A stretch of 64,000 bases of DNA from Desulfobulbaceae bacterium (GTDB lineage: Bacteria; Desulfobacterota; Desulfobulbia; Desulfobulbales; Desulfocapsaceae), in NCBI GenBank assembly GCA_024636345.1, contig JAGXHG010000004.1, positions 62,001-126,000 of the forward strand, read 5' to 3'. This document shows positions 57,126 through 59,700 of the stretch, one piece after another (position 1 is the first letter of the stretch; each line of letters starts with the position of its first letter). The translations under genes and the position numbers were made by a program. Under the pieces are notes generated by a model. That model was not told the origin of the DNA. It did not search any database and saw nothing but the letters and a program-made list of their open reading frames with translations.

Positions 57126-57572
57126 ATGAACTGTCCTCACTGCCACACCGAGATCCCCGTTTTTCGTAATCCGATTCCCACCATCGATATTATCATCGAG
57201 ATTGAGGAAGAAATCGTGCTCATCAAACGGAAAAACCCGCCATACGGCTGGGCATTGCCGGGCGGGTTTGTCGATTATGGTGAGTCATACGAACATGCTG
57301 CACTACGTGAAGCAGTTGAAGAAACCGGACTTGCAGTGCAGAACCTGACTCAGTTCCACACCTATTCCGATCCTGGCCGCGATCCACGGCTACATACGGC
57401 CTCAACTGTCTTTATCGGCCAGGCCCGCAATAAACCCAAAGCAGGGGATGACGCGGCAGAGGCCGAATTATTTTCAGAAAAAAATCTCCCTGATCTGGTC
57501 TTTGATCATGCCAGAATCCTGGCGGATTATTTCGCAGCCAGAAGAATCAAGGCAGCCATCAAGCCGCTATGA
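57126..57572 (+). CDS. Nudix hydrolase with N-terminal Cys pair
   Basis: 148 residues. [10 protein letters not shown] at the start is a CPHC pair. The Nudix box is [20 protein letters not shown] (about 46-65) followed by ETGL. Such proteins remove nucleoside diphosphates from metabolites, and ADP-ribose or NADH are common. Substrate unknown. Confidence 0.88.
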
Positions 57573-57605: not shown

Positions 57606-57667
57606 ACGGCATCACAAGCCGTAACAAAAGAATTTGAAAAAGTTTAATTCCTTCGTCGCGGCTCCTA
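57606..57667. repeat. 3'-end repeat family member (inverted repeat) after the candidate selenoprotein gene
   Basis: On the minus strand, GAGCCGCGACGAAGGAATT pairs with ATTCTTTTGTTACGGCTTG around AAACTTTTTCAA. It begins at the TAG stop of the small ORF and matches the end motif at 2398 and 62336. Confidence 0.6.
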
Positions 57668-57826
57668 AAAAATAGTCCGCAGGATCCAGAAAACAACAAA
57701 CCCCATACCTATGGAGCCGTAAAGCATCAGTCAGGGGATACAATCACTGCCATATTTCCTGGCAATGAACCCGAAGGTAGCCACCCCAATCAATCCGGCG
57801 ACGATAAAAATAAGTAGATCCTTCAT
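57665..57826 (-). CDS. Candidate 53-residue membrane selenoprotein with CxxU motif (in-frame TGA)
   Basis: It starts at ATG 57826, 10 bp after the typA stop. A first transmembrane segment (LLIFIVAGLIGVATFGFIA, about 4-22) is followed by RKYGSDCIP and an in-frame TGA at 57731-57733. The frame then stays open through a second hydrophobic segment (LMLYGSIGMGFVVFWILRTI) to TAG at 57665. Read through as selenocysteine, this gives C-I-P-U, a CxxU redox motif between two helices. In the RNA, CUCCAU/AUGGGG (with GU pairs extending it) forms a hairpin with AGGU loop about 21 nt after the UGA, as bacterial SECIS elements do. Alternatives are a nonsense-mutated gene, or a 31-residue protein. Confidence 0.5.
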
Positions 57827-57835
57827 TCCCTGGCA

Positions 57836-59638
57836 TTACCCCCTGATCCGCACGTCACTTTTTTTCCGCAGCCGGATTGATTTCGGTGTTACCTCAACCA
57901 ATTCATCATCATTGATATAGGCAATACAATCTTCCAGAGTCAGAGCCCGAGGAGGAGTCAGGATTATCGCCTCGTCCGTACCGGAGGCCCGCATATTAGT
58001 CAGTTTCTTGCCCTTACCCGGATTGACCACCATGTCTCCGCCACGAGAACTTTCGCCAATGATCTGTCCCGTGTACAAGGGCGCACCAGGATGAATAAAG
58101 AGCGTACCCCGCTCCTGAAGACTGAATAGGGCGTAAGCCACGGCAGTACAAGGATCCTTAACCAGTAACACCCCATTGAGCCGGTTTTTTATCTCCCCGG
58201 CATAAGGACCATACTCAGCAAAGACATAGCTCATCATCCCCATGCCTTTGGTATCGGTCATGAACTCGGAACGGTAGCCCAGCAGACCGCGGGTCGGGAT
58301 TTTGAATACCATCCGCATCATCCCGCCATGACCTGTGCTCATCTCTTCCATCTGCCCCTTCAGTCTACCCAGCTTTTCAATAACCGCCCCCTGATACTTT
58401 TCGTCCACATCAATAGTAAGCGACTCGAAAGGTTCCATGATTTTGCCATTTTCCTCTTTCATGATTACCTGCGGCCGGGTCACCTGAAGCTCATAGTCTT
58501 CACGGCGCATCTTCTCAATGAGAATGGAGAGATGGAGCTCACCACGACCGGATACCCGGTAGCCGACCGCATCAGTCAACGGCTCATAATGGAGCGCCAC
58601 ATCGGAAAGGACCTCACGGGCAAGGCGCTCTTCAATATGTCTAGAGGTCACAAACTTCCCCTCTTTACCGGCAAAGGGTGAATCATTGGGGATAAAATTC
58701 ATGGAGATGGTGGGCGGATCAATGGCGACCAAGGGCAGAGGCATTGGCTTGTCCAGATCAGTAAAGGTCACCCCCACGGTCACATCATCCATGCCGGCAA
58801 CGGCTATAATTTCACCGACACCAGCGCTGTCGATGGGCACCTTGCCATCAGATTCAAAACGATAGATCTTGGAGATCCGCACCGGCTTGATAGTGCCATC
58901 ACGACGAGCCACTGCCAAGGGCTGATTAATGGCGATAGTACCATTAATCACCTTACCAATACCCAAACGTCCAAGATACTGGGAATAATCAATGGTGCTT
59001 ATCTGCAACTGCAAGGGAGCATCCGGCGACCCTGTAGGGGCCGGGATATGCTCGGTGATCATCTTGGAAATGATCTGCATCCCCATGCCGCCCTCTATTG
59101 GGTCATCAGGATCTGCCATGGCATACCCATCCTTGGCCGAGGCATAGACAACGGGAAAATCAAGGACATCGTCCGGGGCATCGAGTTTAACAAAAAGGTC
59201 AAATACCTGATCGAGAACCCATGGACAGCGCGCCGCTGGTTTATCTATTTTATTGATAACAACAATAACCGGGAGTTTATTTTCCAAGGCCTTTTTGAGG
59301 ACAAAATAGGTCTGAGGCATGGGCCCTTCCTGGGCATCGACCAGCAACAGCGCACCGTCAGCCATACGCAACACCCGCTCAACCTGGCCGCCGAAATCGG
59401 CATGGCCCGGGGTATCAATGATATTAATGGAAAAGTCTTCGTACTGATACGAGCCATTTTTGGCTGTAATGGTAATACCTCGTTCACGCTCCAGATCTCC
59501 GGAATCCATGAGTCTTTCAGCCACATCCTGATTATCACGGAACATCCCGGAATATTTGAAAAGCTGATCAACCAGTGTGGTCTTGCCATGGTCAACATGG
59601 GCGATAATAGCCACGTTACGAATTTTTTCCTGTTTCAT
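57836..59638 (-). CDS. typA: Translational GTPase TypA/BipA
   Basis: 600 residues from the ATG at 59638, preferred over an upstream TTG at 59665. It binds ribosomes and aids assembly or stress translation. G1 is IAHVDHGKTTLVDQ (about 9-22), G2 RGITITAKN, G3 DTPGHADFGG (about 71-80) and G4 NKID (about 126-129). The EF-G-like domains III and V and the BipA-specific C-terminus (SSRGGDMVVNPGKGKKLTNM, from about 526) follow. A terminator-like hairpin lies only 25-65 nt upstream (59663-59700), so transcription must read past it. Confidence 0.95.
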   Translation of the reverse strand: MKQEKIRNVAIIAHVDHGKTTLVDQLFKYSGMFRDNQDVAERLMDSGDLERERGITITAKNGSYQYEDFSINIIDTPGHADFGGQVERVLRMADGALLLVDAQEGPMPQTYFVLKKALENKLPVIVVINKIDKPAARCPWVLDQVFDLFVKLDAPDDVLDFPVVYASAKDGYAMADPDDPIEGGMGMQIISKMITEHIPAPTGSPDAPLQLQISTIDYSQYLGRLGIGKVINGTIAINQPLAVARRDGTIKPVRISKIYRFESDGKVPIDSAGVGEIIAVAGMDDVTVGVTFTDLDKPMPLPLVAIDPPTISMNFIPNDSPFAGKEGKFVTSRHIEERLAREVLSDVALHYEPLTDAVGYRVSGRGELHLSILIEKMRREDYELQVTRPQVIMKEENGKIMEPFESLTIDVDEKYQGAVIEKLGRLKGQMEEMSTGHGGMMRMVFKIPTRGLLGYRSEFMTDTKGMGMMSYVFAEYGPYAGEIKNRLNGVLLVKDPCTAVAYALFSLQERGTLFIHPGAPLYTGQIIGESSRGGDMVVNPGKGKKLTNMRASGTDEAIILTPPRALTLEDCIAYINDDELVEVTPKSIRLRKKSDVRIRG

Positions 59639-59662
59639 TTCCTCTTCCCTGACCCCTTGGAT

Positions 59663-59700
59663 CAAAATAAAAAAAGCACCCGTAAAAAGACGAGTGCTTA
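59663..59700 (-). terminator. Intrinsic-terminator-like hairpin in the typA leader
   Basis: On the minus strand AAGCACTCGT/ACGGGTGCTT (10 bp with one G-U) surrounds CTTTTT and is followed by TTTTTTTATTTT. The structure ends about 25 nt before the typA start, so it either ends the helicase transcript or attenuates typA. Confidence 0.7.

Follow-up and report, generated by a model that had tools for sequence, protein, structure and literature searches.

The question raised by this locus is whether a TGA codon lying inside a short reading frame is translated as selenocysteine (Sec), or whether it is a stop that interrupts an ordinary membrane protein. The window, meaning the whole stretch of DNA that was analysed, is 64,000 nucleotides long, and the frame lies on its minus strand. 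A sequence-only reading had called one frame from ATG to TAG broken by a lone TGA, and had proposed that the RNA after the TGA folds as the hairpin CUCCAU-AGGU-AUGGGG. The coordinates and codons of this frame were reproduced (Table 1), and the proposed hairpin was found to be the minimum-energy fold, with its loop G's 22 and 23 nt past the TGA. With the TGA translated as U, the protein reads MKDLLIFIVAGLIGVATFGFIARKYGSDCIPULMLYGSIGMGFVVFWILRTIF, that is, 53 residues followed by TAG.

Table 1. Coordinates of the gene, its parts and its neighbors within the window
Feature	Position	Strand	Remarks
Selenoprotein CDS (very probable)	57665..57826	-	53 residues, Sec at residue 32; ATG at 57826, stop TAG at 57665; from homologues
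In-frame TGA, codon 32 (putative Sec32)	57731-57733	-	Cys instead in two orthologues of one genus
Cys29 codon, partner in C-x-x-U	57740..57742	-	Kept in 148/149 distinct genes picked by motif pattern
Hairpin of bSECIS type	57699..57718	-	13-32 nt past TGA; apical loop AGGU 57707-57710, G-G 57708-57709
Predicted helix 1, hydrophobic, residues 2-24	57755..57823	-	AlphaFold2 model
Predicted helix 2, residues 31-52, opening with the motif's P-U	57671..57736	-	AlphaFold2 model
typA/bipA, upstream neighbor	57836..59665	-	Same strand, 9 nt gap; position kept in part of the family
NUDIX-domain gene, downstream neighbor	57126..57572	+	Convergent; neighbor analysis

Distribution of the gene

A profile search (E <= 0.01) matched the gene in 212 of the 257 genomes of Desulfobulbia, the window's own class; the order to which the window's genome belongs is likewise represented by 257 genomes. 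One internal stop, always TGA, was found in all matches listed by the protein and profile searches of the class. Weaker-scoring genomes were searched again, and 49 of them were checked row by row, about 15 further ones falling outside that check. Among the resulting 50 rows, 48 carry a single TGA, and the remaining two are a Cys form without any TGA (G218) and a fragment with both TGA and TAA (G194). In a second class of the phylum, probably Desulfovibrionia, matches were found in 53 of the 247 genomes drawn (54 rows, E <= 0.001), each with one TGA.

A draw of 395 genomes across the phylum gave a single clear member beyond the window's own class (G295), and no additional class emerged from a second draw of 390 genomes searched with a broader profile. 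Other matches outside the class, five and two in the two phylum draws, are weak (E 0.00017 or worse) and were dismissed as chance on inspection of their translations. A scan of named genomes yielded at least 11 loci, of which ten are full-length with 70-91% identity and one is partial with 53%. No relative was found in the viral contigs and plasmids searched, and a sequence search of the PDB returned nothing. Since a gene with an in-frame TGA is conserved in more than 250 genomes of two classes, chance is excluded as its origin.

Multiple matches per genome were observed in G012, G099, G148, G155, G156, G157, G159, G161, G236, G251, G252 and G838, with three matches each in G148 and G161; some of those in G148 are partial copies cut off by the end of a contig. 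A copy with 70% identity (L044) is located on a 1.39 Mb contig labelled Altiarchaeales archaeon (MCBF01000001.1), which is probably a mislabelled bacterial bin.

The putative Sec codon and its motif

The 165 fetched loci were screened with a pattern in which TGA is preceded by C-x-P, C-P-(A/S/T/Q) or G-R-P. This pattern fits 156 loci, representing 149 distinct genes, of which 133 carry C-x-P, 15 carry C-P-(A/S/T/Q) and one carries G-R-P. The nine loci that do not fit are five chance matches (L131-L135), a Cys form (L136), a broken copy (L138), a locus whose fetched stretch does not include the gene (L153), and L162, which is a true C-T-P-Sec member with different later residues. The TGA stands at the same codon in 150 distinct genes inspected. 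Residues C29, P31, Sec32, Y36, G40 and G42 are invariant in an alignment of 54 rows, and only C29 and position 32 in broader alignments of 32 and 37 rows that include a Cys form; the G-R-P member is absent from all three.

Cys takes the place of Sec in two orthologues of one genus (g52), as CPAC in G218 and CPMC in G217. Comparison of the orthologues, which carry TGA at this codon or Cys in these two cases, indicates that translation continues through the UGA of codon 32 and that Cys is the natural replacement there. TGA is also the terminal stop in 49 of the 149 genes; therefore, it is not a reassigned codon in this family, and that explanation was ruled out.

Two unusual loci were also seen. 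L137 (in G256), the G-R-P-U member, retains Sec and has Gly in place of the partner Cys, pointing to Sec as the essential residue. L138 (in G194) is a C-S-S-U homologue with an in-frame TAA upstream, possibly a decaying copy.

Selection on both halves and the hairpin after the TGA

Among 264 gene pairs of 70-95% identity, drawn from 156 loci including 7 duplicates, pN/pS was 0.30 upstream of the TGA and 0.36 downstream, indicating that purifying selection acts on both halves of the gene. Helix 2, which lies beyond the TGA, is conserved. In the same pairs, pS drops past the TGA, from 0.56 to 0.39, and such a decrease in synonymous change is predicted by constraint on the RNA.

By itself, the hairpin of the window is not unusual (z 0.17; 106 of 200 dinucleotide shuffles fold equally well), and the support for it is comparative rather than derived from the single sequence. 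Across 116 non-redundant genes, 79% of the cells in the inner stem (the inner six pairs) are paired. The average over 1000 column shuffles is 70% and the maximum 73%, and the figure is 44-57% when the partner is slid. Individual inner pairs are formed in 65% to 96% of the genes, two of them in only about two-thirds. With column numbers starting from 0 at the T of the TGA, the predicted pairs 17-32, 21-28 and 20-29 occupy ranks 2-4 of 861 column pairs by corrected mutual information; the remaining three inner pairs show little variation and stand at ranks 29, 208 and 322. It can be seen that a hairpin of the bSECIS type after the UGA covaries across the family. The top covarying column pair in these 116 genes, 6-27, is not a stem pair, and its covariation may come from shared ancestry or an unmodelled contact.

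Folding relative to synonymous-codon shuffles is strengthened just past the TGA, where z averages -1.30 with a standard error of 0.09, only weakly so upstream (-0.27 to -0.53), and not at all further down. The mean folding energy of the 156 loci is -12.8 kcal/mol versus -10.1 kcal/mol in the shuffles, and 28% of the loci fall within the lowest 5% of shuffles. All 149 genes have a G at +22, and in 144 of them a second G follows at +23. The two Cys forms keep four and three of the six stem pairs, and one still folds strongly in a different manner. Because a T-rich stretch follows it, the window's hairpin segment was also flagged as resembling a minus-strand terminator.

Selenocysteine machinery

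SelA, SelB, SelD and tRNA-Sec are all present in the window's own genome, where tRNA-Sec scores 69.1 bits, SelB 394, SelA 634 and SelD 376.5. The SelD gene of this genome (L194, C9:23604-24545) carries an in-frame TGA as well, and SelD is probably itself a selenoprotein.

Over the 257 genomes, the gene and tRNA-Sec occur together in 186, the gene alone in 26, tRNA-Sec alone in 25 and neither in 20; G217, with the Cys form, is one of the genomes with tRNA-Sec alone. The presence of the gene follows tRNA-Sec only loosely. SelB is above the cut-off in 19 of the 26 gene-only genomes and in 10 of the 20 genomes with neither. The seven gene-only genomes without SelB above the cut-off are G105, G156, G157, G173, G200, G209 and G224; G156, G157 and G224 contain the TGA form, with no tRNA-Sec or SelB above the cut-off, in assemblies that are 92-94% complete. 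In one genus (g38; five genomes, G071-G075), there is no tRNA-Sec, no SelB above the cut-off and no copy of the gene; gene and Sec system were apparently lost together.

Selenoprotein gene, pseudogene or leaky stop

The properties of bacterial selenoproteins of the bSECIS type were found together at this locus: an in-frame TGA followed by conserved coding sequence, replacement of Sec by Cys in orthologues (G217, G218), Sec machinery in the genome, and a downstream hairpin with a G in a small loop, at +22 within the range of about 16-37 nt past the TGA. The selenoprotein reading proposed from the sequence is thus supported by the TGA and Cys orthologues, the conserved helix 2, the Sec machinery and the covarying hairpin, and we estimate the probability that this frame truly encodes a selenoprotein with Sec at codon 32 at roughly 93%, a judgement based on sequence comparison.

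In a single sequence, a stop and a Sec codon are indistinguishable, and the sequence-only reading had named a competing view: a nonsense mutation through gain of a TGA of 3 nt. On this view, an ordinary two-helix protein was broken and the gene is now a pseudogene. The weak homologue L138 does look broken, with its TGA and TAA. However, the TGA is retained in two classes and purifying selection acts on both halves, including the part past the TGA, which refutes the nonsense mutation and leaves it a negligible probability. Leaky termination was also considered, in which a conserved stop would give a product of 31 residues and non-Sec read-through would extend some of it to 53 residues. TGA followed by C is a leaky context, and C does follow the TGA in 110 of the 156 loci. 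Against this stand the two orthologues with Cys in place of the TGA, the covarying hairpin at bSECIS spacing and the complete Sec machinery, so that a leaky stop is considered highly improbable.

Genomic neighborhood

With tblastn, typA was located upstream of 77 of the 149 distinct genes. A convergent NUDIX gene is found in 67 of the 149 and an mtnA-like gene downstream in 35, and 37 have neither typA nor the mtnA-like gene. The latter matches the IF-2B family of Pfam. As in those 35 Sec genes, it is downstream of both Cys forms, immediately after the gene in G217 and about 670 nt off in G218. Among the 28 genes of the second class, typA, NUDIX and mtnA-like neighbors are all absent (0/28), and a MazG gene is common (10 genes). 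The tie to typA that had been proposed earlier therefore holds as a matter of position within one clade and fails in the second class, and a general functional tie to typA was dismissed on these counts. Since gene order shifts by clade, no partner is indicated by the neighborhood.

Comparison with known selenoprotein families

When four members were compared with Pfam-A and NCBIfam release 20, every listed match was below its cut-off. Among 32 members, Pfam-A and NCBIfam gave weak matches to one or two members each, with best E-values of 0.00066 (NCBIfam) and 0.002 (Pfam), in rows for which cut-offs are not shown. No counterpart appears in Table 1 of PMC13188914 (2026), which covers 119 prokaryotic selenoprotein families, and nothing alike appears in Table 3 of the main text of PMC12013277, which contains new families. 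Also, no description of such a family was found in the accessible parts of the literature, including PMC1794560 and PMC8318568. Judged by these sources, the selenoprotein family appears to be new and unlisted.

Among the CxxU selenoproteins in the accessible part of PMC13188914, GrdA, AhpD-like and SelW-like proteins are alike in having UGA-decoded Sec three residues after Cys, a hairpin, and Cys forms. In contrast, the present family shows no family match to them, consists of 53 residues with two predicted membrane helices, and is nearly Sec-only, with 2 Cys orthologues versus more than 250 genomes with the TGA form. The deep-Sep families DG, DW and DF (PMC12013277, main text) are alike as new, domain-less selenoproteins of the same phylum; their motifs differ, being GUxG for DG and GxU for DW, with none given for DF, in the description of PMC13188914. 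No deep-Sep match was obtained in NCBIfam release 20, which has such models if the catalogue numbers are in it.

Bacterial selenoprotein surveys rely on Cys homologues. In the main text of PMC12013277, a 2025 survey in which the genomes of Desulfosediminicola ganghwensis and Desulfolithobacter dissulfuricans were scanned, it is stated that filtering may remove selenoproteins for which no Cys homologue exists, and that every known selenoprotein now seems to have one. With a length of 53 residues and Sec in nearly every member, the present family may be dropped by filters of this kind. If the reading is true, a selenoprotein in most of the Desulfobulbia examined went unseen.

Predicted structure and proposed role

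The two helices in Table 1 were predicted by AlphaFold2 with a mean pLDDT of 68.8 and a pTM of 0.37, and a two-helix membrane hairpin is plausible at this level, not a detailed model. The loop has on average 2.4 K+R and 0.8 D+E; the N end has 0.5 K+R and 0.6 D+E, and the C end 0.8 K+R and 0.0 D+E. Since the loop is the most positive part, the positive-inside rule suggests that it faces the cytoplasm together with the motif. Cys and Sec three residues apart at the start of a helix show a usual geometry of thiol redox sites. In DsbB and VKOR, a redox Cys pair is also found at the start of a membrane helix, and these proteins have four or more helices, further Cys residues and a quinone site. Here two helices are predicted, and neither homology in Pfam nor a bundle of at least four helices was found.

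If decoding follows the established bacterial Sec pathway, SelB with its Sec-tRNA-Sec would bind the hairpin 13-32 nt past the UGA, with the loop G at 22 nt, and would insert Sec. The predicted product would be a two-helix hairpin in the inner membrane, with C-x-P-U in the short loop where helix 2 starts. A selenenylsulfide between Cys29 and Sec32 could then cycle at the cytoplasmic face of the membrane, and electrons might pass between cytoplasmic thiols and a membrane partner. Judged from the CxxU motif alone, such a membrane-anchored selenol/thiol redox relay would be the likeliest role, with about even chances of being correct. Member L137, with its Sec retained and its Cys gone, speaks against this role.

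MerT-type proteins are small membrane proteins, and the real selenoprotein might instead bind or carry metal or sulfur/selenium species in a MerT-like manner. The CxxU adjoins a membrane helix in the present family, and a Sec form of the mercuric transport protein (PF02411) with C/SxxU is listed in the accessible part of the PMC13188914 catalogue. However, no transporter model was matched in Pfam, PF02411 included, and no metal-resistance gene was found among the seven neighbor proteins run against Pfam; a carrier role is considered rather unlikely.

Returning to the redox relay, a broader proposal is advanced tentatively, at odds well short of even: that this is an almost Sec-only, minimal membrane redox family of two sulfur-cycling classes, confined to these classes, whose selenol at the start of a helix would exchange electrons with membrane quinone or sulfur species, and that the GSxGxG of helix 2 would be held largely by the SECIS hairpin. 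In both Cys orthologues, YGSxGxG is replaced by NAAxAAA, and the Ala at the Gly and Ser positions would point to a motif held by RNA more than by protein. The family would then offer an example of a membrane helix whose residues may be set by a signal in the RNA. This segment also varies among Sec members of the second class, for example with AAxAxG in 3 of 28, and since some of them are mostly Ala there, an RNA-held motif is only suggestive.
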